Below the pieces are notes generated by a model. The model ran no database searches. It was not told where the DNA came from and worked only from the letters and a program-made list of their open reading frames with translations. A stretch of 64,000 nucleotides of DNA, taken from the IMG/VR virus record IMGVR_UViG_3300040801_002513, positions 1-64,000 of that record. One strand, written 5' to 3'. Both the position numbers and the translations under genes were made by a program. This DNA is from a virus. Of the stretch, positions 43,249-63,440 are shown one piece after another. Within the stretch, counting starts at the first letter, position 1, and every line of letters begins with the position of its first letter.

Positions 43249-43341
43249 CTGTACCGCTGCCCTTCGGGGTAGTGGTACAGCTTTTTGAAGGAGCAACGGC
43301 CATGTGGGTCACCGCTCCATAACTCCAATCAGGAGATTGTT
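43249..43341 (+). promoter_or_regulatory. Leader repeat 1
   Basis: Hairpin 1 43249-43280 (CTGTACC/GGTACAG, TTCG loop), then CTTTTTGAAG. Hairpin 2 43291-43317 (GAGC/GCTC outside, AAC/ACC 3x3 internal loop, GGCC/GGTC inside). CTCC 43323-43326 can pair with the Shine-Dalgarno GGAG 43332-43335. Confidence 0.85.
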
Positions 43342-43674
43342 ATGAAAATCGAAATAGTTCAGTCCATTCATGGTATCGACGTTGTTAGCGTAGATGGTGT
43401 TAAGTCTTCCAAAGCTGTAGCCGAGATAGTTCTAGAGGCCGTCAGCCGTATAGAGACAGTTAGAGAGCACGAGGCTAACATAGCGCCACTTACACCCGAG
43501 GAGCAGTACGACCCATGTCAAGGCTGTAATGGCCTTGGCTGTGAGGCCATGTGTGCTGCTGAAGGTGGCGTTCCTGGCTCAGATATGGCCTGGGGCCCTG
43601 AAGACGGCAACTGCTGCCCATGCGGTGGTACCAGCTGTGACGGTACCTGTGGTAACAACAGGCCTCCGTTCTAA
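43342..43674 (+). CDS. Cys-rich small protein
   Basis: 110 residues. The N-terminal 55 form a plain alpha/beta region. The C-terminal part has clusters CQGCNGLGCEAMC and CCPCGGTSCDGTC (10 Cys in about 45 residues), a likely metal-binding or disulfide-rich tail. Unrecognised. Its leader holds the full two-hairpin element. Confidence 0.6.
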   Translation: MKIEIVQSIHGIDVVSVDGVKSSKAVAEIVLEAVSRIETVREHEANIAPLTPEEQYDPCQGCNGLGCEAMCAAEGGVPGSDMAWGPEDGNCCPCGGTSCDGTCGNNRPPF

Positions 43675-43681
43675 GCCTACA

Positions 43682-43774
43682 CTGTACCGCTGCCCTTCGG
43701 GGTAGTGGTACAGCTTTTTGAAGAGGCAACGCCCATTCGGGGCACCGCCTCACCTTCCTACTAAGGAGATCATC
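43682..43774 (+). promoter_or_regulatory. Leader repeat 2
   Basis: Hairpin 1 43682-43713 (identical arms and TTCG loop to repeat 1), then CTTTTTGAAG. Hairpin 2 43723-43751: GAGGC/GCCTC outside, AAC/ACC internal loop, GCCC/GGGC inside. Compared with repeat 1 both stems changed with pairing kept. Confidence 0.85.
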
Positions 43775-44029
43775 ATGGCAAATACACAAAGCGACCTTTT
43801 TTCCTATTTCTCTGACCTCTACAAAGAGGTTAATGGCTCTCGCCCTTACGGTGAGTTCTTCTCCAATCTGGATGATTGGGAGATTCAGGATTGGTGTATG
43901 CGGTTGGAGTGGCAGCTCCAAGAGGAGCAAGACCTCTGTGAATGGGCTGAGGCCCACATGGCAGAGGAGGTACGTTGGGACGCCATGCAAGCTGACCCGT
44001 CGCCCGACAAGTACGAGGCTTACTGTTAG
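43775..44029 (+). CDS. Small acidic hypothetical protein
   Basis: 84 residues, Trp- and Glu-rich (WEIQDWCMRLEWQLQEEQDL). Acidic early-type phage protein. Unrecognised. ATG behind AAGGAGATCATC. Confidence 0.55.
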   Translation: MANTQSDLFSYFSDLYKEVNGSRPYGEFFSNLDDWEIQDWCMRLEWQLQEEQDLCEWAEAHMAEEVRWDAMQADPSPDKYEAYC

Positions 44030-44036
44030 GCCTCAC

Positions 44037-44169
44037 CTGTACTGCTGCCCTTCGGGGTAGTGGTACAGCTTTTTGAAGGAGATACGGCCCAATGCGCAAT
44101 TCTGTGCATGGATGGGAGCTACACTGTCTCTATCACTCCACGGCCCCTCATAGGGCAAGGGAGAGCACC
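44037..44169 (+). promoter_or_regulatory. Leader repeat 3 (long variant)
   Basis: Hairpin 1 44037-44068, then CTTTTTGAAG. A long second structure: GAGATA...TGTCTC outer stem and ATGCGC/GTGCAT inner stem. Hairpin GCCC/GGGC (44143-44156) ends just before AAGGGAG. Compare repeat 5. Confidence 0.75.
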
Positions 44170-44472
44170 ATGGCAATATTATCCCTCATCGGTTGTTACC
44201 TCGTAGACGACGTTCTTGTTCCAGCTAAGGCTCAAGAGATAGGCAAAATCAGCTACTTTGTTGACACAGTAGATGATGTACCTAATGTGTCTATCGCAGT
44301 ACGTAAGCGCCATCAGCTTACTACAGCCAAAGGCTCCTCTGAACCTGTATCTATAGGTATCCCTACCCGCAAGGGTACACTCTACGCCTATAGGCAGAAC
44401 GGGTACTACATCGAAGTTCAGATGAAGAAAATGGTTGCCCATCTAACATTTCAAAAAGAGATGAAGAGGTAA
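44170..44472 (+). CDS. Small hypothetical protein
   Basis: 100 residues, beta-rich (MAILSLIGCYLVDDVLVPAK) with a basic C-terminus (FQKEMKR). ATG at 44170 behind GGGAGAGCACC. Function unknown. Confidence 0.5.
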   Translation: MAILSLIGCYLVDDVLVPAKAQEIGKISYFVDTVDDVPNVSIAVRKRHQLTTAKGSSEPVSIGIPTRKGTLYAYRQNGYYIEVQMKKMVAHLTFQKEMKR

Positions 44473-44479
44473 CTAATAG

Positions 44480-44575
44480 CTGTACCAGCTTCCATAGTGG
44501 TACAGCTTTTTGAAGGAGTCAGCAGCTTCGCTGGCTTCGCCCTAAATCCAGAGCCTACGGGCAAAGGAGCTTGTT
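44480..44575 (+). promoter_or_regulatory. Leader repeat 4
   Basis: Short hairpin 1 44480-44505 (CTGTACCA/TGGTACAG), then CTTTTTGAAG. Small hairpin GCC/GGC (44553-44562) followed by AAAGGAG. Confidence 0.75.
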
Positions 44576-44974
44576 ATGCTGAATATATACGTACGGCTGC
44601 CCTATAAAGGCTCCAGCCGGGTAGAAATGGAGCTGGTAGAATGTCATGGGGGGTTTAGATACTCCATGACATTTGACGTATACACCCAGGCATCACAGCT
44701 GTGTGAAATCAGCATCGCTGCGATGCCTAGAAAGAAGAGCTTCTTGGAATATTGCGAAGGGAGAAGTCCCTTCACAAACAAGGAGACAGCCAAGAGATCG
44801 CTGATCTTCTTCCAGGAGTGTCTGAATTTCTTGGAAGAAGAGTTTTCTGGTTGGATGGGGCATTGCAACCCATCTGATCCAAGGAGGCTTAGGATTTACT
44901 CCGCTTACCTCAGTAAAAGGGGTAAAGAAGGAATCAAAGTCAATGAGTATGGCACATTGACTTGGGAGCTGTAA
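44576..44974 (+). CDS. Hypothetical protein
   Basis: 132 residues. Beta-rich N-terminal half (MLNIYVRLPYKGSSRVEMEL) and a helical C-terminal half (IFFQECLNFLEEEFSGWMGH). No motif known. Shine-Dalgarno AAAGGAGCTTG. Confidence 0.5.
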   Translation: MLNIYVRLPYKGSSRVEMELVECHGGFRYSMTFDVYTQASQLCEISIAAMPRKKSFLEYCEGRSPFTNKETAKRSLIFFQECLNFLEEEFSGWMGHCNPSDPRRLRIYSAYLSKRGKEGIKVNEYGTLTWEL

Positions 44975-44980
44975 GCCTCA

Positions 44981-45111
44981 CTGTACCACTGCCCAGGTTG
45001 GGTAGTGGTACAGCTTTTTGAAGGAGGTAAGGCCCGGCCTGCAATTCAGCAGGTGGTTGGGAGCTACACTGCCTCTTCAACTCCAACGCTTTCGGGCAAA
45101 GGAGAGATACC
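44981..45111 (+). promoter_or_regulatory. Leader repeat 5 (long variant)
   Basis: Hairpin 1 44981-45013 with loop CAGG, then CTTTTTGAAG. The long structure matches that of repeat 3 but with GAGGTA...TGCCTC outside and CCTGC/GCAGG inside, so both stems covary. Ends GCT/GGC hairpin then AAAGGAG. Confidence 0.75.
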
Positions 45112-45453
45112 ATGGCAGATCTCAAACTCATCATCGCGGCTACAGCAGCTTTCCCAACAATCGAGTGGTCACATATCGACTGCTCAATGGGGGAAACGTT
45201 GGTAATCAGCCATCTGATGCCGATGAAATCAGCTGCTGGCTGGTACCTGGGTAGGGCTTGTGTTGAGGTTGATGACCCTCACAGCCCAAATCACATAAAC
45301 GTAGATTTTGGCTACGGGCCTTACTCCAGAGAAACGGGGTATTACCCAGATGAGGCCACTCTGCGTAAGGTACACGAGGCAGATATGTTACCTGTGAGAG
45401 ATTGCGTAGAGAATAACGCTCTCTACGACTCGGGTAGACTACCTAAGCCGTAA
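45112..45453 (+). CDS. Hypothetical protein
   Basis: 113 residues with several His/Cys (WSHIDCSMG) and a conserved-looking GYGPYSRETGYYPDEA. Possibly metal-binding. Not recognised. Confidence 0.5.
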   Translation: MADLKLIIAATAAFPTIEWSHIDCSMGETLVISHLMPMKSAAGWYLGRACVEVDDPHSPNHINVDFGYGPYSRETGYYPDEATLRKVHEADMLPVRDCVENNALYDSGRLPKP

Positions 45454-45459
45454 ACCTAA

Positions 45460-45549
45460 CTGTACCGCTGCCCTTCGGGGTAGTGGTACAGCTTTTTGAA
45501 GGCAGCGCCATATGGGCTACGCCATTAACCTTTTGTAAGGAGACTCACC
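45460..45549 (+). promoter_or_regulatory. Leader repeat 6
   Basis: Hairpin 1 45460-45491 (TTCG loop), then CTTTTTGAAG. Hairpin 2 45501-45523: GGC/GCC outside, AGC/TAC internal loop, GCC/GGC inside. CCTT...AAGG brackets the Shine-Dalgarno. Confidence 0.8.
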
Positions 45550-45870
45550 ATGAAAACTATCATCCACGCAACATTTACAATAGTATGTATACTCATAATA
45601 GTATTGGCCACCTTGGTTATATCCAATATACTGTCTAAGCCTGCTACCGATACTGCTAAGGTTATTCATGATGAGCCTATGTCAGCTTATCACGATATCC
45701 TCTGTATAGAGGAAGACGGCAGTGCTGAAACCTACAGCATCCCTGTTCCAGTATTCGAGGGATTCAGCGATGAGTTTGTAGAAGACTACCTTGAGTACGC
45801 AGGGCAGCAGTTCTGCGATAGCATAAAAAACAAGAGCCGGTACCTTCACGATGTAGGTGAAGACCGATAA
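45550..45870 (+). CDS. Membrane-anchored small protein
   Basis: 106 residues. One N-terminal transmembrane segment (FTIVCILIIVLATLVISNIL, about 9-28), then a periplasmic or cytoplasmic acidic domain (SIPVPVFEGFSDEFVEDYLE) with two Cys. Function unknown. Confidence 0.55.
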   Translation: MKTIIHATFTIVCILIIVLATLVISNILSKPATDTAKVIHDEPMSAYHDILCIEEDGSAETYSIPVPVFEGFSDEFVEDYLEYAGQQFCDSIKNKSRYLHDVGEDR

Positions 45871-45875
45871 CCCAT

Positions 45876-45973
45876 CTGTACCATTACTCCTGTGTGAGTA
45901 GTGGTACAGCTTTTTGAAGGCAATGCTCGTGTAGAAGCAGCGCCTCACTTTAACTCCAACTAAGGAGAATATC
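45876..45973 (+). promoter_or_regulatory. Leader repeat 7
   Basis: Hairpin 1 45876-45909 with an extended stem (CTGTACCATTACTC/GAGTAGTGGTACAG), then CTTTTTGAAG. Hairpin 2 45919-45944 (GGC/GCC, AAT/AGC loop, GCT/AGC). CTCC/GGAG can close on the Shine-Dalgarno. Confidence 0.85.
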
Positions 45974-46240
45974 ATGAGAAATATAGACAAAGTAGAGTTG
46001 AAATGCGCGTTAGATGCAATTTTAACAAAAAATAGGGAGATGTATCGAGCTGCTTGGCAGGAGAGCACCTCAGACGAACTGAGGAAGCAGTACAGCTCAT
46101 GGTGCAGAGCTAAAGAGGAAGAAATCGCCTCGACGTTAGAGGATTTTGCCATCTATACCGAAAGGGTTAGCCTCGGGGGGCTTACCCCTCAAGTATTAAT
46201 TGAGGGCAAGTCGATGTACCTAACAAAATTGTTTTATTAG
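45974..46240 (+). CDS. Small helical protein, paralogue of 50499-50762
   Basis: 88 residues, helical: MRNIDKVELKCALDAILTKN then WCRAKEEEIASTLEDFAI. About half identical to the 87-residue protein at 50499. The two also share leader and trailer sequences, showing a duplication. Ends in a different C-terminus (YLTKLFY). Function unknown. Confidence 0.6.
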   Translation: MRNIDKVELKCALDAILTKNREMYRAAWQESTSDELRKQYSSWCRAKEEEIASTLEDFAIYTERVSLGGLTPQVLIEGKSMYLTKLFY

Positions 46241-46271
46241 TTGCCGGCAAGGCAATTTCCATAGCACATTC

Positions 46272-46313
46272 GCACCACACCTGGCTTAGGCTAGGTGTGG
46301 TGCTTTCTTTTTT
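46272..46313 (+). terminator. Strong terminator after the 45974 gene
   Basis: GCACCACACCT (46272-46282) pairs with AGGTGTGGTGC (46293-46303), followed by TTTCTTTTTT. The same hairpin recurs after the paralogous gene at 50770-50801. Confidence 0.9.
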
Positions 46314-46367
46314 AAAAGCGCCCTGGGACTTCGTAAAGGAGTTCTTGAGTAACACAGTAGACCAAAT

Positions 46368-46435
46368 AGCAGTACAGCTTTTTGAAGTAATACCGCTTCA
46401 GTTTTGCCCCGACTAGAGGGGATTGCGAGGTACTC
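46368..46435 (+). promoter_or_regulatory. Leader repeat 8 (right arm only)
   Basis: TAGCAGTACAG then CTTTTTGAAG (46368-46387), no left arm. A GAAG/CTTC hairpin follows (46384-46399). The small ORF 46436 starts after GCGAGGTACTC. Confidence 0.45.
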
Positions 46436-46609
46436 ATGAAAGTACACACAGTTTTTACAGCGAAGAATAACCTCATCACCCAAATTGTCGCTGAGGGAAA
46501 CCCTGGCGTGCTGACTCTCCTTTGTCCCCACATACGATTCATTTCTCAAACTTTAATCAAAAAACTACTGCAGATAGTGGTACAACTTTTTGAACGGGCA
46601 CAGCCATAA
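46436..46609 (+). CDS. Possible small ORF in a 395-base gap
   Basis: 57 codons from ATG 46436 behind GCGAGG. It reads MKVHTVFTAKNNLITQIVAE then GNPG, and is cut by the next leader element near its end. Homologous position to the 32-residue ORF at 54480, which also ends with NPG. Weak. Around it: terminator copy, leader element 8 and the CCCCACATACGATTCATTTC repeat. Confidence 0.35.
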   Translation: MKVHTVFTAKNNLITQIVAEGNPGVLTLLCPHIRFISQTLIKKLLQIVVQLFERAQP

Positions 46610-46636
46610 GGCAAAGCCCACAATAGGAGATATACT
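46571..46636 (+). promoter_or_regulatory. Leader repeat 9 (right arm only)
   Basis: ATAGTGGTACAA then CTTTTTGAAC, without a left arm. Hairpin 2 46596-46619: GGGC/GCCC outside, ACA/AAA internal loop, GCC/GGC inside. This gene's Shine-Dalgarno is not in a hairpin. Confidence 0.7.
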
Positions 46637-46783
46637 ATGGAATGTGTTATATGCGGCAAAATCAACTGTGAAGAAAACCCTGGGTGTGAGGCAGCTAGCT
46701 CTCTGCTGGAGGACATCTACATGGATGAGTACTGTTGCTATACTTGCGGTCAAGAGTTTGATGACTGCACTTGCGAAGAATAA
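46637..46783 (+). CDS. Small zinc-ribbon protein
   Basis: 48 residues, found by reading. CVICGKINCEENPGC then YCCYTCGQEFDDCTC gives two CxxC-type pairs. Starts at ATG 46637 behind AGGAGATATACT. Metal-binding regulator is a fair guess; function unknown. Confidence 0.55.
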   Translation: MECVICGKINCEENPGCEAASSLLEDIYMDEYCCYTCGQEFDDCTCEE

Positions 46784-46789
46784 CCTTTA

Positions 46790-46885
46790 CTGTACCATTG
46801 CCCAAGTTGGGTAGTGGTACAGTTTATTGAAGGAGCAATGCCCATATGGGGCGCCGCTCTATAACTCCATATAAGGAGATTTACC
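46790..46885 (+). promoter_or_regulatory. Leader repeat 10
   Basis: Hairpin 1 46790-46822, then TTTATTGAAG (T-run broken). Hairpin 2 46833-46859: GAGC/GCTC, AAT/GCC loop, GCCC/GGGC. CTCC ATATAA GGAG hairpin on the Shine-Dalgarno. Confidence 0.85.
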
Positions 46886-47188
46886 ATGACTAAGCTTACT
46901 CTTGACCCAGCCATCATCGCCGCTTTCTCAGCTCACAGTATTGAGTTGGAACACCGCCCTGAGCTCAACGAGGGTCGCGGCCTATGGCAATACGATGACG
47001 GCCCTGACGGGGCAATCATTGAATTGTGGGTTGGCATCAATGGTACCGGTAATGTAGGTGTATTCGGCACCTATGATGCTGGTGATTTTGGCCAACAGTA
47101 CGGCCTGTCTAGCAACATGTCAGATTGGATAGAGAACTTCGCTCAATATCTGCCATTCATGGCCAAAGGTGAAGAATTCGATTGGTAA
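46886..47188 (+). CDS. Small acidic hypothetical protein
   Basis: 100 residues, acidic, Gly/Asp-rich centre (IELWVGINGTGNVGVFGTYD). Beta-rich. Unrecognised. Confidence 0.5.
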   Translation: MTKLTLDPAIIAAFSAHSIELEHRPELNEGRGLWQYDDGPDGAIIELWVGINGTGNVGVFGTYDAGDFGQQYGLSSNMSDWIENFAQYLPFMAKGEEFDW

Positions 47189-47196
47189 CCCTTACG

Positions 47197-47278
47197 CTGT
47201 ACCAGCTTCCTTAGTGGTACAGCTTTTTGAAGGCATAGCTCACAAAGAGCAGCGCCATAACTCCAATGGAGAGATATC
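47197..47278 (+). promoter_or_regulatory. Leader repeat 11
   Basis: Hairpin 1 47197-47222, then CTTTTTGAAG. Hairpin 2 47232-47256: GGC/GCC, ATA/AGC loop, GCTC/GAGC. CTCC AAT GGAG closes on the Shine-Dalgarno. Confidence 0.8.
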
Positions 47279-47611
47279 ATGTCCAATACACAGATTTTTA
47301 CAATAGCAGTAATGTCAGCAGCTAATGAAGTACGTGGTGCTGAAAAGAAAAGTGTTAAATACTTCTTAGGTGAACTGGTAGAAATTGGATGTTCATTCAC
47401 CAGATGTACAGACACATATTGTATAAGACTTTCTAGCTTCTTCAATAGTGAGGAAGAGGTGCAAAAAACTGAACTTATACCCCATATCGTGGTTGAACAA
47501 GGGCCATTAGTAATAGGTAAGGGTATTAAGTACTACCCATCAAAGAGCTGTATATCGCCTATCAACCAATGGGCCTTAGAAAAAAGGTTCAACAAGCGTA
47601 TAAAGAAATAA
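47279..47611 (+). CDS. Hypothetical protein
   Basis: 110 residues, basic C-terminus (EKRFNKRIKK), scattered Cys (CSFTRCTDTYC). Function unknown; a small DNA- or RNA-binding protein is possible. Confidence 0.5.
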   Translation: MSNTQIFTIAVMSAANEVRGAEKKSVKYFLGELVEIGCSFTRCTDTYCIRLSSFFNSEEEVQKTELIPHIVVEQGPLVIGKGIKYYPSKSCISPINQWALEKRFNKRIKK

Positions 47612-47620
47612 CCCATTACA

Positions 47621-47711
47621 CTGTACCAGCTTCCATAGTGGTACAGGGTTTTGAAGGAGCTTACATATCGTTGGCTCTAAAATCCAACGCCTACGGGCAA
47701 AGGAGTCTGTT
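47621..47711 (+). promoter_or_regulatory. Leader repeat 12
   Basis: Hairpin 1 47621-47646 (short loop), then GGTTTTGAAG (T-run altered, TTGAAG kept). Hairpin GCC/GGC (47689-47698) then AAAGGAG. Confidence 0.75.
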
Positions 47712-48206
47712 ATGATCACCATTAAACTCACCGGCCACTTACACGTTGGTAGTGCTACTGAGACCTCTTCTGATTGTGGTAACTGTGACGGTGCACGTTG
47801 CGAGGAATGCCACAAGCGTTGGGTCTTCGAGGGTACTACCTACTACAGTTACGAGGCTGCTTTGGAAGCAGAGGCTAAAAGCCTTTCTGCTTGGCAGGAC
47901 CTAGTACCTGGTGTAGAGATGCCTTCTGACCCACAATTCGCCCTCAATGCTGATGGAGAGTTAACAGCTCTCTGTTGGAGTTGGGAAGAGGGGGACCATC
48001 TGGTAGTTTGTAACCCAGATGCTCCAGCATACGAAGCAGTGTATGCTAAGGCCCTCAAAGCTACTGAGTTGTGGGTGAAATGTCCTTGTGTTGATAAAGC
48101 AGACCATTGCTACGCCAATGACTGTAGTATCATGGGATGCAATGACACACGCTGTCAATATGAGGTAAAACACCGTGGGCGTAAGGAGCGCAAATGGTAC
48201 ATGTAG
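47712..48206 (+). CDS. Cys-rich hypothetical protein
   Basis: 164 residues. CGNCDGARCEECHKRW (about 22-37) is a zinc-ribbon-like cluster, and a second Cys-rich end has CPCVDKADHCYANDCSIMGC. Basic C-terminus. Function unknown, probably metal-binding. Confidence 0.55.
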   Translation: MITIKLTGHLHVGSATETSSDCGNCDGARCEECHKRWVFEGTTYYSYEAALEAEAKSLSAWQDLVPGVEMPSDPQFALNADGELTALCWSWEEGDHLVVCNPDAPAYEAVYAKALKATELWVKCPCVDKADHCYANDCSIMGCNDTRCQYEVKHRGRKERKWYM

Positions 48207-48213
48207 TACAAAG

Positions 48214-48299
48214 ACAGGGCCAGCTTGTATAGTGGTCCTGTTTTTTGAAGGGCAAAGGCATAAGGCCACAGCCCATAACTCCAAATAAGGAGAATCACC
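48214..48299 (+). promoter_or_regulatory. Leader repeat 13 (compensated stem)
   Basis: Hairpin 1 48214-48241 is ACAGGGCCA/TGGTCCTGT: the usual GGTAC core is GGTCC here and the left arm changed with it. TTTTTTGAAG follows. Hairpin 2 48250-48274 is GGGC/GCCC with AAA/ACA loop. Confidence 0.85.
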
Positions 48300-48512: not shown

Positions 48513-48530
48513 CATTAAAGGAGATTAGTC

Positions 48531-48731: not shown

Positions 48732-48737
48732 TATCCA

Positions 48738-48828
48738 CTGTACCACTGCCCAAGTTGGGTAGTGGTACATTGTTTTGAAGCAGCGCCATATGGGCAACGC
48801 TCACCCTAACCTCCAATTGGAGATTGTT
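48738..48828 (+). promoter_or_regulatory. Leader repeat 14
   Basis: Hairpin 1 48738-48769, then TTGTTTTGAAG. Hairpin 2 48779-48801: AGC/GCT, AGC/AAC loop, GCC/GGC. CTCC AATT GGAG hairpin holds the Shine-Dalgarno. Confidence 0.8.
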
Positions 48829-49116: not shown

Positions 49117-49122
49117 CCTCTT

Positions 49123-49216
49123 CTGTACCATTGTCTAGTTTAGGCAGTGGTACAGCTTTTTGAAGGAGCAGCGCCATATAGGCATCGCTCTATAACTCCA
49201 GCTAAGGAGAATCACA
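49123..49216 (+). promoter_or_regulatory. Leader repeat 15
   Basis: Hairpin 1 49123-49155, stem GTCTA/TAGGC by wobble, then CTTTTTGAAG. Hairpin 2 49166-49190: GAGC/GCTC, AGC/ATC loop, GCC/GGC. CTCC/GGAG on the Shine-Dalgarno. Confidence 0.85.
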
Positions 49217-50400: not shown

Positions 50401-50498
50401 CTGTACCATTACTCCTGTGTGAGTAGTGGTACAGTTTTTTGAAGGCAATGCTCATGTAGAAGCAGCGCCTCACTTTAACTCCAGCTAAGGAAAATATC
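50401..50498 (+). promoter_or_regulatory. Leader repeat 16
   Basis: Hairpin 1 50401-50434 (as repeat 7), then TTTTTTGAAG. Hairpin 2 50444-50469: GGC/GCC, AAT/AGC loop, GCT/AGC. Nearly identical to repeat 7 because of a gene duplication. Confidence 0.85.
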
Positions 50499-50762
50499 AT
50501 GAGAAATACAGACAAAGTAGAACTGCGCACAAAATTGGACTCAGTTTTAACTGAAAACAGAGACCGTTATATAGTCTCTTGGAAAAACAGCCCATCTGCC
50601 GCACTCAGACAGCAGTACAGAAAGTGGTGCATAGCTCAGGAGAAGGAAGTTGCCTCTACCTTAGAAGAATTCGGTATTACTACCGATAGAGTTAGCCTCA
50701 GCGGACTTTACCCACAAGTATTAATTGCTGACAAGGCGATTTCCCTAGCACAATTGATGTAG
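50499..50762 (+). CDS. Small helical protein, paralogue of 45974-46240
   Basis: 87 residues, helical (MRNTDKVELRTKLDSVLTEN, EKEVASTLEEFGI). About half identical to 45974-46240; the shared terminator and leader show segmental duplication about 4.5 kb apart. Function unknown. Confidence 0.6.
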   Translation: MRNTDKVELRTKLDSVLTENRDRYIVSWKNSPSAALRQQYRKWCIAQEKEVASTLEEFGITTDRVSLSGLYPQVLIADKAISLAQLM

Positions 50763-50769
50763 CACATTC

Positions 50770-50811
50770 GCACCACACCTGGCTTAGGCTAGGTGTGGTG
50801 CTATCTTTATT
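50770..50811 (+). terminator. Strong terminator, copy of the one at 46272
   Basis: GCACCACACCT (50770-50780) pairs with AGGTGTGGTGC (50791-50801), followed by TATCTTTATT. Confidence 0.85.
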
Positions 50812-50861
50812 AAAAGCGCCCTGTATTTTCATATGTAAGTACAGGGTATTACAAAGGCTAA

Positions 50862-50938
50862 CAGTACCAATTACCTTCACAGGTTATACGCTAGTGGTAC
50901 AACCTCTTGAAGTTAAACAATCAACTTAGGAGGTACAG
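50862..50938 (+). promoter_or_regulatory. Leader repeat 17 (weak)
   Basis: GTACCA (50864-50869) and TAGTGGTAC (50892-50900) with a long loop, then AACCTCTTGAAG. The T-run is broken but TTGAAG is intact. AGGAGGT lies before a possible GTG. Confidence 0.5.
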
Positions 50939-51073: not shown

Positions 51074-51160
51074 TAGTGGTACAACTTTTTGAAGGAGCAC
51101 AATGGGTGCTTCGCAGTACAATCACGGCCCACTTCCGGGCAAAGATTTAAGGAGAATACC
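51071..51160 (+). promoter_or_regulatory. Leader repeat 18 (right arm only)
   Basis: AATAGTGGTACAA then CTTTTTGAAG with no left arm. Hairpin GCCC/GGGC (51127-51140) then AAAG; Shine-Dalgarno AAGGAGAATACC. Confidence 0.7.
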
Positions 51161-51772
51161 ATGAATTTAGCTATCGTTATCGGAAACCTAGGTGAAACCC
51201 CAGTAGTTCGTAAAACTGCCGCTGGTATGTCAGTTACTACATTCTCTCTGGCCACCACTGAGCGTTGGAAAAAGGACGGGGTTAAGCAGGAGAAAACCAC
51301 TTGGCACAAGATTCAGGCCTGGGGTACTAACGCAGATAATTGCGCCGCGTACCTGTCCAAAGGATCAAAGCTGCAGGTCACTGGCCGTATGGAAATCCAG
51401 CCTTGGACTGACCAGCAAGGTATTAAGAGAAATCCCACCATCATCGTGATGAGTGAGATGGAGATGTTAGGCGATCCTGGACATAGGAACGAGTCTAACA
51501 ATAGTACTCCTGCTCAAAATACTGCGACAACCAACTCTGCTTGTAAATTCACCTATAAGCAGATGAAAGACGGTGGTTGGACCGATGAGCAACTACTGGC
51601 TGACCCCCAGTATGCGCACTTGGTACCGAAGAAAGCCGCACCTCCTGCCCCACCAAAACCTCCTGTGGCGCAAAACAATCCGCCATCTCCACCCACACCT
51701 ATATCTGTGGCACCTCCTCAGGGTTGTGCCAGTTCTCAGGGTTTCGTGCCTGACGAGGACTATGGAGTGTAA
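51161..51772 (+). CDS. ssb: Single-stranded DNA-binding protein with GWT module
   Basis: 203 residues. OB-fold N-terminal domain (1-105): MNLAIVIGNLGETPVVRKTA, TTWHKIQAWG and KLQVTGRMEIQPW match bacterial SSB. Residues 130-156 are FTYKQMKDGGWTDEQLLADP, YAHLVP. A Pro-rich linker (PAPPKPPVAQ) leads to an acidic end (VPDEDYGV). The ATG follows AAGGAGAATACC. The GWT module also occurs in 58581 and 60244, which suggests a shared partner. Its expected role is coating ssDNA in replication. Confidence 0.88.
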   Translation: MNLAIVIGNLGETPVVRKTAAGMSVTTFSLATTERWKKDGVKQEKTTWHKIQAWGTNADNCAAYLSKGSKLQVTGRMEIQPWTDQQGIKRNPTIIVMSEMEMLGDPGHRNESNNSTPAQNTATTNSACKFTYKQMKDGGWTDEQLLADPQYAHLVPKKAAPPAPPKPPVAQNNPPSPPTPISVAPPQGCASSQGFVPDEDYGV

Positions 51773-51779: not shown

Positions 51780-51870
51780 TCAGTACCCGCTTGTATAGGG
51801 GTACTGATTTTTTGAAGTCAACTGTAGTATTACTCAAATCAAAGCCTAATAAAGGGCAAAGGAGATTACA
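51780..51870 (+). promoter_or_regulatory. Leader repeat 19 (compensated stem)
   Basis: Hairpin 1 51780-51808 reads CAGTACCC/GGGGTACTG: TGG became GGG and CCA became CCC. TTTTTTGAAG follows. Hairpin GCC/GGC (51844-51857) then AAAGGAG. Confidence 0.8.
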
Positions 51871-52449: not shown

Positions 52450-52540
52450 ACAGTACCATTGCACTTCGGTGTAGTGGTACTGTTTTTTGAAGCAATGCTG
52501 CTTTACAATTCAGCGCTCATTTTGAGCAAAGGAGAACACA
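52450..52540 (+). promoter_or_regulatory. Leader repeat 20
   Basis: Hairpin 1 52450-52482: ACAGTACCATTGCAC/GTGTAGTGGTACTGT with TTCG loop, then TTTTTTGAAG. Second hairpin GCTG/CAGC. GCTC/GAGC (52515-52527) then AAAGGAG. Repeat 22 is a near copy of its lower half. Confidence 0.85.
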
Positions 52541-54380: not shown

Positions 54381-54390
54381 CACTATTAAT

Positions 54391-54479
54391 ACAACCACCT
54401 CTGATAACTTAGGGGTGGTGGTATTATTTTTTGAAGTAATAAAGCTTCACAGCCACTTTTGGCATAGGAGAATTCACTT
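54391..54479 (+). promoter_or_regulatory. Leader repeat 21
   Basis: Hairpin 1 54394-54419 (ACCACCTCT/AGGGGTGGT), then GTATTATTTTTTGAAG. A GAAG/CTTC mini-hairpin follows, as in repeat 8. Confidence 0.7.
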
Positions 54480-54578: not shown

Positions 54579-54660
54579 CGCTTTTGTCCCCGCATACGAT
54601 TCATTTCTCCAATTTAAAGCAAATACTAATAACACAAACTCAAAGACAGCGCCACAAACA

Positions 54661-54729
54661 GTAGTGGTACTGTTTTTTGAAGCAATGCTGCTTTACAATT
54701 CAGCGCTCATTTGAGCAAGGGGACTCATC
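54661..54729 (+). promoter_or_regulatory. Leader repeat 22 (right arm only)
   Basis: GTAGTGGTACTG then TTTTTTGAAG with no left arm. Lower half nearly identical to repeat 20: GCTG/CAGC and GCTC/GAGC (54705-54716) then AAGGGGAC. Confidence 0.75.
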
Positions 54730-55176: not shown

Positions 55177-55177
55177 A

Positions 55178-55455: not shown

Positions 55456-55550
55456 TGGGGATGGGGATGGGGAATGGGGTAGTAGTGGTACTATTTTTTG
55501 AAGTTAATCGCAGTCAAATAAGTAGTACAACCTAACTAAAGGAGAACACC
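55456..55550 (+). promoter_or_regulatory. Leader repeat 23 with G-quadruplex tract
   Basis: Four G4 runs (GGGG AT GGGG AT GGGG AAT GGGG, 55457-55479) lie directly before TAGTAGTGGTACTA and TTTTTTGAAG. No hairpin left arm. Then AAAGGAGAACACC before the ATG. Confidence 0.7.
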
Positions 55551-56577: not shown

Positions 56578-56590
56578 TAACGAGGTAAAT

Positions 56591-56944: not shown

Positions 56945-56960
56945 AATAAACAAAAAACTG

Positions 56961-57040
56961 GTACTGCTACCCCATAACAAGGGGTAGTGGTACAAATTTT
57001 TTGAAGATAATTAAGATTAAAATTTAATTGGAGGCAAACC
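56961..57040 (+). promoter_or_regulatory. Leader repeat 24
   Basis: Hairpin 1 56961-56993: GTACTGCTACCCC/GGGGTAGTGGTAC, then AAATTTTTTGAAG (one base longer spacing). Shine-Dalgarno TGGAGGCAAACC. Confidence 0.75.
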
Positions 57041-57820: not shown

Positions 57821-57934
57821 GCACCGACAAAAAGGTCACAACCATAATAATCATCGTAAATGGAAATAAATCCTAGATGGGAGGCCAACAACACATGCTT
57901 CTCAAAAACTCTACAAAACAGCGGAGATATTAAA

Positions 57935-58483
57935 ATGATTCCACTAAAATACGCAGGTATTGGATCAAGAACAACACCACCAAATATTCTGCACACAATG
58001 ACCCGAATCGCAATACTGCTCGCCCACACTGGAATAGAGTGTAGCACAGGAGCTGCCATTGGTGCCGACCAAGCATTTGGCAATGGCGCCATAGCAGGTG
58101 GTGGCAAACTACACATAGCATTACCGTGGGATAACTACGAACTGGCATGGCAAAACTCCCTAAAAGGACAAGTAACCAAAACAGTACTTAATCCAGAATT
58201 TCACGTAGAAGCAATGCAATCGGTCAAAGAATTCCACCCAAAATGGAAAGACATATCTCAAGGTGCCTACAAGCTACACGCAAGAAACTTCCTAATAATA
58301 CAAGGATGCGCATTCATAATCTGCTGGACGCCTAATGGCGCAGTCAAAGGTGGAACAGGACAAGCCATTAGAATAGCAGAAAAAACAGGTATAAACGTAT
58401 GGAACCTTGGGGATAAGAAAACACTGGACTACTTCCTGGCCGATATAGAAAAACGGATAAACGAGATACCTGAAGGATTCTAA
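57935..58483 (+). CDS. SLOG/DprA-like Rossmann protein
   Basis: 182 residues from ATG 57935 behind GGAGATATTAAA. SLOG superfamily (LOG/DprA-like nucleotide-ligand) pattern: YAGIGSRTTPPNILHTMTRI, ECSTGAAIGADQAFGNGAIA, LPWDNYELAW and WTPNGAVKGGTGQAIRIAEK (the PGGxGT-like motif). Such proteins bind or cleave nucleotide-derived signals. Near NADAR and the macro domain it may act on NAD- or ADP-ribose-derived molecules (inference). Confidence 0.75.
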   Translation: MIPLKYAGIGSRTTPPNILHTMTRIAILLAHTGIECSTGAAIGADQAFGNGAIAGGGKLHIALPWDNYELAWQNSLKGQVTKTVLNPEFHVEAMQSVKEFHPKWKDISQGAYKLHARNFLIIQGCAFIICWTPNGAVKGGTGQAIRIAEKTGINVWNLGDKKTLDYFLADIEKRINEIPEGF

Positions 58484-58502
58484 AATCATTAATAAACACA
58501 AA

Positions 58503-58580
58503 GACCGCTACCAACAATGGGGGTAGTGGTCCGGGTGTTTGAGGCCCGTTAATAAGAAATCTTTACTACAGGAGAAACAC
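58503..58580 (+). promoter_or_regulatory. Leader repeat 25 (compensated stem)
   Basis: Hairpin 1 58503-58530: GACCGCTACC/GGTAGTGGTC (core GGTCC), then GGGTGTTTGAGG. Here the T-run is lost. Confidence 0.6.
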
Positions 58581-60113
58581 ATGCAACAAGAATTCATACC
58601 AATCAACCAGCTCATGGAGTCCGGAATCGACCTTGTGAGCCCACACTTGCGTTGGTTGCTTAGACACGCAATAATAGAACATTGTGGTGACAAAGCAATC
58701 AATCTCATTTCGTACTGCAAAGACATACCAAGAGATAAAAACGGCAATGCTATATGGGGAGAAACATTTGCACCATGCAAAAGCATAGCCATAAATCTAG
58801 AAGCCCACTTCGACCACTGTATCACACAGGTACAAGACGAAGATAAAATGTGTACTTCACTACGAACTATTCTCATACGTGAACTACTTGATACAGCAAT
58901 TCATGAAGCCCATCATCTTAAAGCCTCTTTCACTTCTGGAGACTTCAGCAATTCCAAACTAGAAGAAGATACGGCTAAAAAAGAAGCTTGGGAAAAATCA
59001 TGGATGGCGGCAAAATACTGGGACACAGAAGTAACAGTATTTGGGTCTGTACTAGATCCTCTGCTTAAAGACTTCTTTGAAAGTATAAAAGCAGATACCA
59101 TAGAAAAACCCATAATGTGGAAAGATTTACAAGTCTACATGTGGGAAAATAACCTAGCATTCTACAACCCTGACAAGGAGCAAGAATGCAAAATGCGTGA
59201 AGCCTTCGAAACAATGGCTGGCGACGATGACCCATGGATTGATGAACCAAAAATGTTCATGGTTAGTACAATAGAACAAGCTTCCTCAACACTGGCTGAT
59301 AAAGACAACAAATCTGAAGAATACGAAGAAATACCAAAAGCCTCAGACAACTCAGAAGAATTCGTGCCTCCAGATACAGAACCTGAAATTATTAATGAAC
59401 CAGTAAAAGAATTTACATACGAACAAATGATACAAGCAGGATGGACTAACAAAACTCTAGCAACAAATCCTGTTTATGCTCATCTAATTCCACCAACACC
59501 ACCGACACCACCGGCACCACCGGCACCACCAGCACCACCAGCACCACCAGCACCACCAGCACCACCTGTAACCAAATCAGAACCAACAACAACCACACAA
59601 GCTTTACAAAATGGGGTTATCAACGTACAACAGATACAAAAGACAGTTGAAAATGTTATGCGTGTATTATTTGTACACGTTATGACTAAATGTGGCTTAA
59701 CAAACCAAGGAACATACAATAACCCAACTGCAGTACTAGAACCAATAAACATATCAAACATTCCAGGCGCATCAGAACTAATGAGTCATATGGATACAGC
59801 TGACGCCAATGGAGTATACGCTGGAAATCAACCATGCAACGGATTCATAAAAGGTCTGGTATCCAAACAAGACCTACCAATGTACAGATTCTACTTAAAC
59901 ATCGGTGGAAACTTGTACAGAAGAACATTAATACCCCAAAATCCTAACAAGTTAAACTCTAACCAAGAACTCACCAAATGGGCACAAGAAGCACGTGAAG
60001 GTGCAAAAATTATGATGCTCCTCGAAGACGGAAAAGGTCCACGAGCACATATCAAACTTGATGCCGGACAAACACTTGGACAGGAAGAGTTCAAAATCTG
60101 GGATAATAAATAA
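58581..60113 (+). CDS. HExxH protein with GWT module and proline-rich linker
   Basis: 510 residues from ATG 58581 behind AGGAGAAACAC. Residues 102-114 carry LLDTAIHEAHHLK, a HExxH zincin motif (108-112), with a Glu/Trp-rich helix beyond. Residues 278-301 are the GWT module (FTYEQMIQAGWTNKTLATNP), followed by about 26 residues of Pro with PPA repeats (304-329). The C-terminal domain (about 335-510) resembles an OB-like or structural region (RFYLNIGGNLYRRTLIPQNP). Its GWT module is shared with SSB (51161) and the 60244 protein. A zinc peptidase acting at replication forks is one guess; not proven. Confidence 0.65.
   Translation: MQQEFIPINQLMESGIDLVSPHLRWLLRHAIIEHCGDKAINLISYCKDIPRDKNGNAIWGETFAPCKSIAINLEAHFDHCITQVQDEDKMCTSLRTILIRELLDTAIHEAHHLKASFTSGDFSNSKLEEDTAKKEAWEKSWMAAKYWDTEVTVFGSVLDPLLKDFFESIKADTIEKPIMWKDLQVYMWENNLAFYNPDKEQECKMREAFETMAGDDDPWIDEPKMFMVSTIEQASSTLADKDNKSEEYEEIPKASDNSEEFVPPDTEPEIINEPVKEFTYEQMIQAGWTNKTLATNPVYAHLIPPTPPTPPAPPAPPAPPAPPAPPAPPVTKSEPTTTTQALQNGVINVQQIQKTVENVMRVLFVHVMTKCGLTNQGTYNNPTAVLEPINISNIPGASELMSHMDTADANGVYAGNQPCNGFIKGLVSKQDLPMYRFYLNIGGNLYRRTLIPQNPNKLNSNQELTKWAQEAREGAKIMMLLEDGKGPRAHIKLDAGQTLGQEEFKIWDNK
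59490..59568 (+). repeat. CCACCAGCA-type tandem repeat
   Basis: Nine-base units (CCACCAGCA or CCACCGGCA) repeated about eight times encode PAPPAPPAPP. Likely to vary in length between strains by slippage, and in frame. Confidence 0.85.
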
Positions 60114-60130
60114 AACCTTAACAAATCCTA

Positions 60131-60243
60131 CATCGGGGAGTGGGGAGTAGTGGTACTGCTCCTTGATGGAGGTTAGAAAACAATCTACCTTATTTTACAG
60201 CCTCTCTTTGGGGCATTTACTAAAGTTAAAAGGAGAATTACCA
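60131..60243 (+). promoter_or_regulatory. Leader repeat 26 (G-rich, no left arm)
   Basis: GGGGAGTGGGGAGTAGTGGTACTG then CTCCTTGATGG: two G4 runs precede the core and the T-run is absent. AAAGGAGAATTACC before the ATG. Confidence 0.55.
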
Positions 60244-61206
60244 ATGGCAAACCAAAGTTCGTTCCACCAAAACGTTGTAAATGTACGAGCCGCAGGTTCT
60301 AAAGACCAGTCTACAGGACTTGTACTAGGCGGAATTTACTTCCCAGAACACATAACAAAAGAAGGAAAACAAGTATCAGCACATTGGGAAGGTCAATTCT
60401 TCATCAATCAGCTGGGTTGGACAGATGCAGAAGGCGTATTCCATGAGCCTAAAAACATTCCTATTCGAATCACAGCATGGAATGGTAAAAACGCAGCAGC
60501 AGGAAAAGGATTAGCAGATGTATTTGCTAAATGTGTATCAGTTGGTAAAGAATTGTCCGCCGCTCTTCGCATAGACTACTACATGAAAACTCTCTATATC
60601 AACAACGTTGCGCAGACAGACCACCTCGGACAGCCAATAAAAATACCTGCTTACGGTTGGCTAATCAAAAGCGACTTGCAGTGGGGTGCAGACTCATCGA
60701 ACGTAATAGCACAAGAGATTGCTAACTGGCAAGGAGTTCCAAACTTCTACAGCCGTCCACCACAATGGAACACACAAGGCACAGCTGACAATGAAGCATG
60801 GAAACTAGTTGTAACCCAACGAATGGCAACAATATATCAGGGAGAAAGCACTTACGGATACGCACGAGTAATGATTCCTGAAGGTGCTCAAATAGTTAAC
60901 CAAGCAAAACAACCGTTAAGAGGAAAAGTTGAAACACCTCCACAAACATTCCAAGGACAACAACCAACAATGCCAGGAATGTCACCAACAGGTATGACAG
61001 TACCTCCACCTCCTGCCGCAGTACCTCCACCACCAGCACCACCTGCACTAACGTATCAACAACTCATAGGTGCAGGATGGACAGACGAACAAATTCGCAA
61101 CAGTCAATACGCAAACCTAGCACAATCACAAGGACAGCCTCCAACAAGCGCAGCAACAGGAATGGCGCCTGGAGCAACTCCACTAAGTAATCCAGCAGGT
61201 ATATAA
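60244..61206 (+). CDS. Putative ssDNA-binding protein with GWT module
   Basis: 320 residues from ATG 60244. N-terminal 230 are a basic/aromatic beta-rich domain (ITAWNGKNAAAGKGLADVFA, KELSAALRIDYYMKTLYINN) resembling OB-fold DNA-binding proteins. A Pro-rich segment, then LTYQQLIGAGWTDEQIRNSQ (269-288), the GWT module, and a Pro/Thr/Gly tail. Its copy of the module ties it to SSB and the HExxH protein. No SSB signature read with certainty. Confidence 0.6.
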   Translation: MANQSSFHQNVVNVRAAGSKDQSTGLVLGGIYFPEHITKEGKQVSAHWEGQFFINQLGWTDAEGVFHEPKNIPIRITAWNGKNAAAGKGLADVFAKCVSVGKELSAALRIDYYMKTLYINNVAQTDHLGQPIKIPAYGWLIKSDLQWGADSSNVIAQEIANWQGVPNFYSRPPQWNTQGTADNEAWKLVVTQRMATIYQGESTYGYARVMIPEGAQIVNQAKQPLRGKVETPPQTFQGQQPTMPGMSPTGMTVPPPPAAVPPPPAPPALTYQQLIGAGWTDEQIRNSQYANLAQSQGQPPTSAATGMAPGATPLSNPAGI

Positions 61207-61238
61207 CCAACTAACATCCTCATCTCTACTAATAAAAA

Positions 61239-61368
61239 TGGGGATGGGGATGGGGATGGGGAATAGTGGTACTGCTTTGTGAATAAAAAATTAGCTAGAA
61301 TGTATCTGGCTTAGATGTAAAAACAAACACGCCTAAAATGGGCAAAAAACAACACAAGGAGATTTAAA
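61239..61368 (+). promoter_or_regulatory. Leader repeat 27 with perfect G-quadruplex tract
   Basis: Four G4 runs spaced by AT (GGGGATGGGGATGGGGATGGGG, about 61241-61262) precede AATAGTGGTACTG. No left arm. AAGGAGATTTAAA lies before the ATG. Confidence 0.75.
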
Positions 61369-61707
61369 ATGAAAAAGATTATCGCCGCTATCGCAATCGC
61401 TCTCTGTATGGCCGCCTCTTCAGCTTCTGCAATCGACGTTAACACCGCTACTGCCGAAGAACTCGACGCATCTCCACTCATGAGAATGGGAAAAGTCACT
61501 TCAATGAAAACAGTTGCAGAACGTGACCTGAACGGACCATTCAAAGACGCAAATGATTTGATGACTCGCGTACCAGGAATCGGAAAAATGTTCATCACCA
61601 ACAATGCCGCAGAACTCCAATTCTCAAATGTAGAAACCGCACCCAAAGTAACGCCAGCAGCAACAACAACCGCACCTGCAGCAACTGCAACACCTGCCGC
61701 ACAATAA
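61369..61707 (+). CDS. Exported ComEA-like helix-hairpin-helix protein
   Basis: 112 residues. Signal peptide (1-22, IAAIAIALCMAASSASA). Mature region IDVNTATAEELDASPLMRMG and PFKDANDLMTRVPGIGKMFI match the ComEA HhH DNA-binding domain. Ala/Thr/Pro-rich tail. ComEA proteins bind dsDNA in the periplasm. A phage copy might act on incoming DNA or on competing elements (inference). Confidence 0.75.
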   Translation: MKKIIAAIAIALCMAASSASAIDVNTATAEELDASPLMRMGKVTSMKTVAERDLNGPFKDANDLMTRVPGIGKMFITNNAAELQFSNVETAPKVTPAATTTAPAATATPAAQ

Positions 61708-61723
61708 ACAATCCTGATCTAAC

Positions 61724-61752
61724 CGTTACCACCGCTTGCATAGGGTGGTAAC
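61724..61752 (+). promoter_or_regulatory. Leader repeat 28 (hairpin only)
   Basis: GTTACCACC/GGTGGTAAC perfect hairpin (61724-61751) then ATAACTTTTTAC. The GGTAC core has become GGTAAC. Confidence 0.6.
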
Positions 61753-61818
61753 ATAACTTTTTACAAATACCAAATTACTAAATCACTACCATTAACTATT
61801 ACTACAAGGATATACTAA

Positions 61819-61908
61819 ATGCAAGACATCGTACAACAATCCAAAAGAGAGAAACCATATGAAAACCACAACTACCAGCAAACTAATCAATATCAGATTA
61901 AAACTTAA
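61819..61908 (+). CDS. Possible small ORF
   Basis: 29 residues, Gln/Tyr/Asn-rich (MQDIVQQSKREKPYENHNYQ), Shine-Dalgarno AAGGATATAC. Overlaps the start of the 61859 gene in another frame. A leader peptide is possible. Confidence 0.3.
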   Translation: MQDIVQQSKREKPYENHNYQQTNQYQIKT

Positions 61909-62062
61909 AAACATTAACACAACTAACCACATAAAAACTAAACCTCAACTCTGTCCACATTGTCTAGCAGAACTGATTCGTTTCTCAGATGATTGGACAC
62001 CACCTATATGTGAAAACCCTGTATGCCCTTTAAACAACTACACACCAAAAGGCCACTCATAA
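61859..62062 (+). CDS. Small zinc-ribbon protein
   Basis: 67 residues, basic N-terminus then CPHCLAELIRFSDDW and ICENPVCPLNN (CxxC...CxxxxC). Stop overlaps next ATG (TAATG). Metal-binding, function unknown. Confidence 0.5.
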   Translation: MKTTTTSKLINIRLKLKNINTTNHIKTKPQLCPHCLAELIRFSDDWTPPICENPVCPLNNYTPKGHS

Positions 62063-62424
62063 TGAACAAACTACTAATTCTTACATGCGTTATAATAGCA
62101 ATAGCTTCAAAATCATATGGGGCTGGCTTGGGAGGAACTGTGTATGTACCTAACCTACATGCTAAATGCTTAAGTACCCATCAAAAATGCATATTAGAAT
62201 GTGCATCAGATCCAGAAAGTACATGTACTAATGAAAGCATAAATGAAAAAGCAAAAACTTGCGCAGAAGCATGTATAGAAGAGTATGTAGCATGTGAAGA
62301 ACTGCTAGACAAGTTAAAATGCATGAACAGCTATGTACCAGTAAAACCAAGAAACACCAAAGTAGATGTAGAAGCTATATTCAAAAGAATCGAGGAGGAA
62401 AATAAACACTATGAAGACGGTTAA
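62062..62424 (+). CDS. Exported Cys-motif protein A
   Basis: 120 residues. Signal peptide (1-18, LLILTCVIIAIASKSYG). Mature core KCLSTHQKCILECASD ... TCAEACIEEYVACEEL has Cx6Cx3C ... Cx3Cx6C, the same spacing as in the next gene. Acidic tail. Overlaps both neighbours. Likely disulfide-bonded periplasmic protein. Confidence 0.65.
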   Translation: MNKLLILTCVIIAIASKSYGAGLGGTVYVPNLHAKCLSTHQKCILECASDPESTCTNESINEKAKTCAEACIEEYVACEELLDKLKCMNSYVPVKPRNTKVDVEAIFKRIEEENKHYEDG

Positions 62425-62680
62425 AAATATATTAGCAGTAGTATTCTTGCTAATAGTACTATTTAGAGTAAGCTTAAGCTTCGGAAGTCAGCAACAAGCT
62501 GAACTGTATGCAGAATGTGGGCGAATTCAAAATAGCTGTCAATCACAGTGCGTACATATAGAGTTAATAAACCAACAAAACCCAAAAGGAGTTATAGCCT
62601 GTAATCCAAAAAACAACAGAATATCTCAATGTAAAAATATCTGTTATACCAACTACATAAGATGCAGAGGAGGTAGATAA
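62411..62680 (+). CDS. Exported Cys-motif protein B
   Basis: 89 residues. Signal peptide (1-25, ILAVVFLLIVLFRVSLSFGS). Core ECGRIQNSCQSQC ... QCKNICYTNYIRC with Cx6Cx3C ... Cx3Cx6C spacing, matching protein A. Overlaps gene A by 14 bases. Confidence 0.65.
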   Translation: MKTVKNILAVVFLLIVLFRVSLSFGSQQQAELYAECGRIQNSCQSQCVHIELINQQNPKGVIACNPKNNRISQCKNICYTNYIRCRGGR

Positions 62681-62689
62681 GGAGAATCT

Positions 62690-63295
62690 ATGACAAAGAA
62701 AAAAAAGATAAGTATAATACTAGCTATGATAGGCACATCATTCGTTGCAGGTATGTTTAAAGTAGAATCACCACTAACAGATGATAGGAGGAAAATAATA
62801 AGACTAGTAGTAAAACATCCAGATATATTTAGATACGCAGAAATAAGAAGAAACTTCATGGTTAAAACCTTAAAAACCTGCGATGATCTAAATGAGAGTA
62901 ACTTCAAAAAATATGACTTTGGTGACACACTACTATCTTCAAAAAATGGTTGTATAGACAAAGTAATACATACAATCAGACAAGGTGTAGTAAATACATC
63001 AACATTAGACACCAACACAGGATATGCTTCACTGTACATAGGTAATACTTCTAATAGTTTTCAAATAAACTCAGTAGGAGAAGAACTAAAAGGAGCAGAA
63101 GCACAAACATACATGAACAATATTGAAAAACTACTTAGAGCTATACCAAAAAATGTACCTGATAAAGCTACTCTAAAAGTATTAAATATTGCATCAGTTG
63201 CATACTTTGATGACTTCGCAAATATCAAATATGTAAAAGACTATCAAGCAGAAAAACTTGCTGAAGAGGGAATACCATATAGAGGACAATTCTAA
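62690..63295 (+). CDS. Membrane-anchored hypothetical protein
   Basis: 201 residues. N-terminal hydrophobic segment after basic residues (KKKKISIILAMIGTSFVAGM), then a mixed periplasmic region with two Cys. Follows the Cys-motif genes by 9 bases. Function unknown. Confidence 0.55.
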   Translation: MTKKKKISIILAMIGTSFVAGMFKVESPLTDDRRKIIRLVVKHPDIFRYAEIRRNFMVKTLKTCDDLNESNFKKYDFGDTLLSSKNGCIDKVIHTIRQGVVNTSTLDTNTGYASLYIGNTSNSFQINSVGEELKGAEAQTYMNNIEKLLRAIPKNVPDKATLKVLNIASVAYFDDFANIKYVKDYQAEKLAEEGIPYRGQF

Positions 63296-63307
63296 ATCCC
63301 AACTAAG

Positions 63308-63341
63308 CCAAGCATCTAGACTAGAAATACTAGATGCTTGG
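63308..63341 (+). terminator. Strong hairpin after the 62690 gene
   Basis: CCAAGCATCTAG (63308-63319) pairs with CTAGATGCTTGG. No T-run follows (GAGTTGGGG). Likely terminator or stability element. Confidence 0.6.
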
Positions 63342-63404
63342 GAGTTGGGGATTTGGATAGTGGTATCAGGCTATTTTTTTCCAAAGGCATACAGAAGCAA
63401 TCCG

Positions 63405-63440
63405 AATGAGTGTATTCTGGACTTGGGGAGTAGTGGTACT
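63405..63440 (+). promoter_or_regulatory. Last TAGTGGTAC element
   Basis: TTGGGGAGTAGTGGTACTGGGAAGTG (63421 onward) keeps the core after a G-rich tract but lacks TTGAAG. A partial copy with TAGTGGTATC is at 63358. Confidence 0.4.

Follow-up and report, generated by a model that had tools for sequence, protein, structure and literature searches.

A hairpin-associated repeat in the right arm of an uncultured phage is a candidate composite terminator and promoter for a phage-encoded RNA polymerase

Introduction

In Thermus phage P23-45, a tape-measure-fused virion RNA polymerase transcribes the pre-early genes from conserved AT-rich promoters, and among its relatives this motif is present with the fusion and absent without it; a second polymerase is used for many early genes, and a conserved termination motif is also known (PMC10770324). 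Jumbo phages with virion polymerases have a conserved motif of about 10 nucleotides (nt) near -10 before their early operons (PMC7598289), and the PeSLs of T4-like phages are composite, conserved promoter-terminator motifs (Arbiol 2010, doi 10.1093/gbe/evq006, and Comeau 2014, doi 10.1093/gbe/evu129, as cited in PMC4503421). Here we describe a repeated intergenic element in a window of 64 kb, the whole stretch of DNA analyzed, taken from a 66,317-base record of an uncultured virus (IMG/VR record IMGVR_UViG_3300040801_002513). Each copy contains the 9-mer TAGTGGTAC followed at a short distance by GA, and in most copies the 9-mer is also the right arm of a hairpin. From sequence evidence, we put at roughly 70% the probability that each copy is a composite terminator and promoter serving an RNA polymerase encoded by the phage, with the enzyme fused to the tape measure as the likeliest candidate.

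PeSLs use early promoters of the host sigma-70 type, and the virion-polymerase promoters of phage N4 require a short hairpin in single-stranded DNA. The likeness of PeSLs to the present element lies in a repeated stem-loop with an early promoter between the accessory genes of a large phage, a fixed unit with variable cargo; here, 20 of the 29 copies combine a stem, a T-run and a conserved downstream core, the promoter half being putative. The element differs from PeSLs in that no sigma-70 promoter accompanies it, with no above-chance -10 past TTGAAG and no sigma-70-like enrichment, and in that the promoter-like 9-mer is itself the stem arm. With N4 it shares a hairpin near the start site and a polymerase that is injected, as we presume it to be here. 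Unlike in N4, 9 of the 29 copies lack a stable stem on the core, and the candidate polymerase is of the two-barrel type; an N4-type hairpin promoter is rejected because its obligatory hairpin is missing from those nine copies.

Results

A 9-mer and a downstream GA mark the right-arm intergenic regions

Left-arm genes of the window, among them those for the portal, PhoH and a large terminase with intein-like insertions, lie on the minus strand, and right-arm genes lie on the plus strand from about 42.9 kb onward. The pattern TAGTGGTACN{5,20}TTGAAG has 18 exact matches, all on the plus strand, against 0.01 expected from shuffles. A degenerate scan for TAGTGGTAC-N8-GA finds 29 sites between 42824 and 63431, all on the right-arm coding strand (Table 1); a scan match at 63941 is apparently spurious and stands outside this count. 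A left arm able to pair with the core is present at 20 of these sites and absent from 9. These figures agree with the roughly 29 copies of an earlier note on this DNA, and come close to its split into about 21 with a hairpin and 8 without. Allowing up to one mismatch, the 9-mer occurs in 25 of the 27 right-arm intergenic regions and only three times in right-arm coding sequence. The same note took TTGAAG to be the element that is kept, and here it was mistaken: degenerate copies end in TTGAAC, TTGAGG, TTGATG, GTGAAT, ACGAAG or GTGAGG, and the constant parts are TAGTGGTAC and GA. A known structured RNA family is rejected, as Rfam models gave only three matches, all under the gathering score and at chance level.

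One cassette of the window is duplicated (45876-46325 and 50401-50823). It comprises the element, a leader, a gene (56% protein identity between the copies) and a strong terminator, and both copies begin exactly at the element.

The element recurs in related phages

No phage record matched the window at the DNA level, and its terminase and PhoH matches are distant and mixed, which bears on whether the carrier is a T4-like myovirus. Kin were found through a portal search, which led to 80 related loci; searches with a right-arm protein and with PhoH gave none. The search for the motif in related phages that the earlier note had proposed was positive: arrays are present in G003, G006 and G032, and one copy lies at the edge of G008. 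Scanning viral contigs for the exact motif gave no match, and a looser scan returned G003, G006 and G008 together with chance-like singletons. G003 and G005 are one phage, with a shared stretch of 17.9 kb at 99.99%; the G006 and G008 fragments end short of the polymerase. Few right-arm genes are common to the window, G003 and G006, so that conservation of the element goes with a cargo that is in large part not conserved.

Copies without a left arm keep the core

All nine armless copies in the window keep the GA, with TAGTGGTAC nearly unchanged. One of them stands at the junction of the two arms, where the preceding gene is on the opposite strand. At the same divergent junction, G003 and G006 each have a tandem pair of copies 66-67 bp apart; three of these four have no stable fold, and the fold of the fourth, at 12138 in G003, involves only three core bases. 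G032 likewise has a junction copy. Since junction copies have no upstream gene on their own strand, there is a job here for a promoter and none for a terminator or a processing site. Elsewhere, the armless copies at 46367 and 50892 come after separate strong terminators at 46272 and 50770, both of which had been pointed out before and are the two top scorers in our terminator scan.

A G-run tract such as GGGGATGGGGATGGGG often stands directly ahead of armless cores, and GGGG falls within 30 nt in 15 of 35 no-hairpin hits, compared with a background of 5%. Tracts of the GGGGATGGGGATGGGG type adjoin armless TAGTGGTAC cores in the window (55457-55483 and 61240-61264) and also in the loci L095, L096 and L205, and may possibly be G-quadruplexes.

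The hairpin half has the anatomy of a terminator and is under selection

Nineteen of the 20 hairpin copies lie 22-40 nt past a co-directional stop codon, the exception being the copy at 54662 with its imperfect stem, and in most the next start codon follows 56-110 nt downstream. The stems fold at about -11 to -27 kcal/mol and lead straight into the T-run; the G+C-rich stem and immediate T-run of an intrinsic terminator are found in most hairpin copies and not in the nine armless ones. Terminator-like sites number 31, against 16.4 in shuffles, and 11 of the best 13 are these elements.

Pairing was followed in a per-stem table of 33 stems from three phages, which was used because RNAalifold on a MAFFT alignment merged two stem classes. 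The left arm drifts with pairing kept, placing G or A opposite T and C or T opposite G. At stem position 8, a change from A to C is matched by a change of its partner from U to G in five stems, and at position 10 a U-A pair has become A-U in nine. Because the left arm follows changes in the right arm in this way, the stem is under selection; and because such drift is not seen in the right arm, the latter is under an additional constraint. The earlier proposal of a recognized site beyond a terminator is supported, through the 9-mer and GA of armless copies and the junction copies without an upstream gene, and a promoter is its likeliest nature. What does not stand, besides the weight given to TTGAAG, is the setting of hairpin against promoter: the terminator-type stem sits on the promoter sequence in most copies, so the one does not count against the other.

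A second hairpin is found in the leader, which starts at the first G past the T-run. It begins at +1 (GAAGC...GCTTC) or +4 (GAAGGAGC...GCTCC) of the presumed transcript and occurs in the majority of 44 copies taken from four phages (mean z -1.7). Its position suits a transcript beginning at that G, and would also suit an RNA cut there.

A candidate polymerase is fused to the tape measure

The window opens on the N-terminal part of a giant open reading frame (ORF) that is cut by the end of the record. Its counterpart in G005 spans at least 5,650 amino acids (aa), and the open frames of other relatives reach 7,500-8,700 aa. In the G005 ORF, a region with FEDQ, GSKG and DxDGD motifs precedes a tape-measure domain (PF10145, E 1.8e-27; PHROG tape measure, E 5e-80), and across 26 sequences of this polymerase region DxDGD never varies in its G or in its three D residues. 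A profile of the region finds a family made up of stand-alone phage polymerases (probability 95.7, E 8.6e-9); PF00562 recognizes one of that family's members. The window's ORF spans the FEDQ and GSKG part only, and is 60% identical to that of G005 over the start of the polymerase region. A two-barrel polymerase joined to a tape measure, as in P23-45, is found in relatives including G005, with the N-terminal part of it in the window. Giant polymerase-tape-measure ORFs occur at 42 loci in viral contigs (L162-L203), and also at L099:1-16950 (-); no relative of the fused polymerase was detected among 50,697 phage records.

The parallel with P23-45 extends to several features: a two-barrel polymerase N-terminal to the tape measure, a conserved motif before early genes, a second, free-standing polymerase (here in G032) and, in P23-45 too, a conserved termination motif. 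Unlike the present element, the P23-45 motif is AT-rich, and a promoter overlapping a terminator hairpin is not described in PMC10770324. A conserved motif before early genes is found in the window, G003/G005 and G032, and also in the fragments of G006 and G008, which do not reach the polymerase. In phiKZ and AR9, a conserved motif was, as here, found from sequence alone, and it was later shown to be the early promoter; their motifs differ in being AT-rich, and their polymerases are split into several subunits (PMC7598289).

Free-standing single-polypeptide polymerases with a DFDGD motif were seen in G032 (L208:3334-6588, +) and in G026 (L118:427-3342, +). The two are about 45% identical, and both phages also have a fused polymerase. 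The T7-type polymerase model PF00940 gave no matches in 32 records, but its controls were silent too.

Discussion

A proposed stop and restart at each early gene

We propose that the promoter would consist of TAGTGGTAC, a spacer of 8-9 nt that is mostly T-rich, and a start at the GA beyond. Where a co-directional gene directly precedes the site, TAGTGGTAC would pair with a complementary arm to its left, forming a terminator-type hairpin that runs out into the T-run. Transcription would then stop and restart within about 10 nt, which would make each small early gene its own unit, and the new transcript would open with a 5'-proximal hairpin. The enzyme reading these sites would probably be the one that forms the N-terminal region of the giant tape-measure protein and is apparently carried in the tail and injected with the DNA, as in P23-45. 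It is conceivable, though on balance doubtful, that the tethered polymerase stays stationary and that the DNA threads past it. Each transcript would end at a hairpin and the next would be started from the same 9-mer, at most about 10 nt away, with promoter core and terminator arm being one sequence and the early genes being read separately.

Composite promoter-terminators and virion-polymerase promoters are each known; what looks new is to find them combined, with the core of the promoter acting as an arm of the stem. The literature we found has detailed work on tape-measure-fused virion polymerases for a single group of Thermus phages. Big uncultured phages are now seen to have a large family of such fused polymerases, and no relative of it was detectable among the isolates searched. 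This lineage gains a concrete candidate promoter and terminator, for whose test in vitro a single protein domain and a single DNA fragment would suffice, and, if the proposal is true, this kind of polymerase gets a defined control site. A single sequence would apparently do double duty as the core of the promoter and an arm of the terminator; the variable cargo is as in T4-like phages, and the polymerase is different.

Several observations weigh against the proposal. The catalytic DxDGD part lies beyond the window's record and is known from relatives only. A first AlphaFold model was poor (predicted local distance difference test score, pLDDT, 44), and a second was moderate (pLDDT 70, predicted template modeling score 0.44); its matches to folds in the PDB are not significant, although 19 of the 34 are RNA polymerase largest subunits. 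Profile comparison with P23-45 gp96 gave no detectable similarity in the polymerase region. The motif-bearing phage G032 (228 kb) encodes a second, free-standing polymerase on the plus strand at 23.3-26.6 kb that could be the reader. From TAGTGGTAC to GA the spacing is mostly 8 in the window and mostly 9 among the hairpin copies of relatives. The copies at 60148 and 61264 stand closely behind stop codons and have no hairpin, with GGGG tracts replacing the arm. Finally, a comparable repeated motif was not found in the arms of G011, G022 and G026, in some of which the homologous early region is perhaps unsampled; their promoters may be less repetitive. The fused-polymerase regions of these motif-less distant relatives are 35-40% identical, and the absence of the motif is consistent with a specificity that shifts along with the enzyme, without proving it.

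Alternative explanations

The alternative that survives best keeps the composite terminator-promoter and changes its reader to the second, free-standing polymerase, made after infection. The enzyme of G032 is encoded on the same strand as the right arm, and the second polymerase of P23-45 serves many early genes (PMC10770324). However, the junction-proximal array of small variable genes resembles a first-expressed region, it is the fused enzyme that serves the pre-early genes in P23-45 (PMC10770324), and the window's record, itself incomplete, has no second polymerase. We consider this reader possible but rather unlikely; its probability overlaps the figure given above for the composite.

Fairly improbable, in our judgment, is that the element is an RNA-processing site, with long polycistronic transcripts being cleaved between the two hairpins, either within the T-run or at GAAG, and the 9-mer serving as an RNA recognition sequence. 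Such processing would give every mRNA a hairpin at its 3' end and another at its 5' end, hairpins do flank the T-run in most copies, and every transcript would contain the 9-mer. Nevertheless, copies at divergent junctions have no upstream gene on their strand and hence no transcript to cut, no other promoter-like signal is enriched that could produce long transcripts, and the upstream hairpin is absent from nine copies. It is this anatomy that appears to decide between promoter and processing.

Ordinary intrinsic terminators, kept alike by duplication and recombination and containing no promoter, would account for the strong stems and T-runs, and one cassette is indeed duplicated. This reading is very improbable and we reject it: it leaves unexplained the armless copies with their 9-mer and GA, and it must also contend with a left arm that drifts freely beside a fixed right arm and with junction copies that have nothing to terminate.

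A host sigma-factor promoter is scarcely credible in spite of the similarity of TTGAAG, as a -35 hexamer, to TTGACA, and of TGGTAC...GA, as a sigma-54 site, to TGGCAC, and both forms are rejected: -10 matches at the proper distance (15-19 nt spacing) are no better than shuffled (2.29 versus 2.69 of 6), sigma-70 sites are not enriched in the right arm (37 versus 40.6), and the GG-N10-GC required for sigma-54 occurs in 0 of 27 copies.

Table 1. Candidate polymerase and copies of the element in the window. Composite, hairpin together with core; core, position of the 9-mer.
Coordinates	Strand	Feature	Core	Remarks
3..4766	-	N-terminal 1,588 aa of giant ORF		cut by record end; candidate reader polymerase
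42737..42745	+	degenerate junction copy, GAGTGGTACCCG		upstream of first right-arm gene; outside the 29; aligns with the leading copy of the junction tandem in G003 and in G006
42824..42844	+	junction copy, no left arm		before first right-arm gene
43249..43290	+	composite, hairpin	43270	with GAAG
43682..43723	+	composite, hairpin	43703	
44037..44078	+	composite, hairpin	44058	
44479..44515	+	composite, short-stem hairpin	44495	
44981..45023	+	composite, hairpin	45003	
45460..45501	+	composite, hairpin	45481	
45876..45919	+	composite, hairpin	45899	
46367..46387	+	no left arm		downstream of separate terminator 46272
46575..46595	+	no left arm		
46790..46832	+	composite, hairpin	46812	
47196..47232	+	composite, short-stem hairpin	47212	
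47621..47656	+	composite, short-stem hairpin	47636	
48214..48250	+	composite, short-stem hairpin	48230	TAGTGGTCC, left arm compensates
48739..48780	+	composite, hairpin	48760	
49123..49165	+	composite, hairpin	49145	CAGTGGTAC
50401..50444	+	composite, hairpin	50424	
50892..50912	+	no left arm		downstream of separate terminator 50770
51074..51094	+	no left arm		upstream of SSB-like gene
51780..51817	+	composite, short-stem hairpin	51796	TAGGGGTAC, compensated
52450..52492	+	composite, hairpin	52472	
54387..54436	+	composite, divergent hairpin	54416	TGGTGGTAT, compensated
54646..54682	+	imperfect left arm	54662	
55457..55503	+	no left arm	55483	G-run tract
56961..57006	+	composite, hairpin	56985	spacer 9
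58503..58544	+	composite, hairpin	58524	TAGTGGTCC
60134..60168	+	no left arm	60148	G-run tract
61240..61284	+	no left arm	61264	G-run tract
63424..63451	+	no left arm	63431	G-run; weakest copy

Other features of the window

The two arms are separated by a non-coding stretch of TAGTACTA-like repeats (40700-41750), which is possibly an origin or genome-end region; similar tracts occur in G030 and G026 (L156 near 2600; L157 near 18600). In the left arm, the large terminase ORF (26242-30507, -) encodes 1,421 aa with helicase/endonuclease-type, intein-like insertions, and the same arm has an ORF for a deoxynucleoside monophosphate kinase-endonuclease (32979-34400, -) and a free HNH/homing endonuclease ORF (19197-20600, -). 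In the right arm, three proteins (51161-51772, 58581-60113 and 60244-61206, all +), one of them SSB-like, have in common a short C-terminal motif of the GWT[DN]...P.YAHL type, downstream of Pro/Ala-rich stretches.

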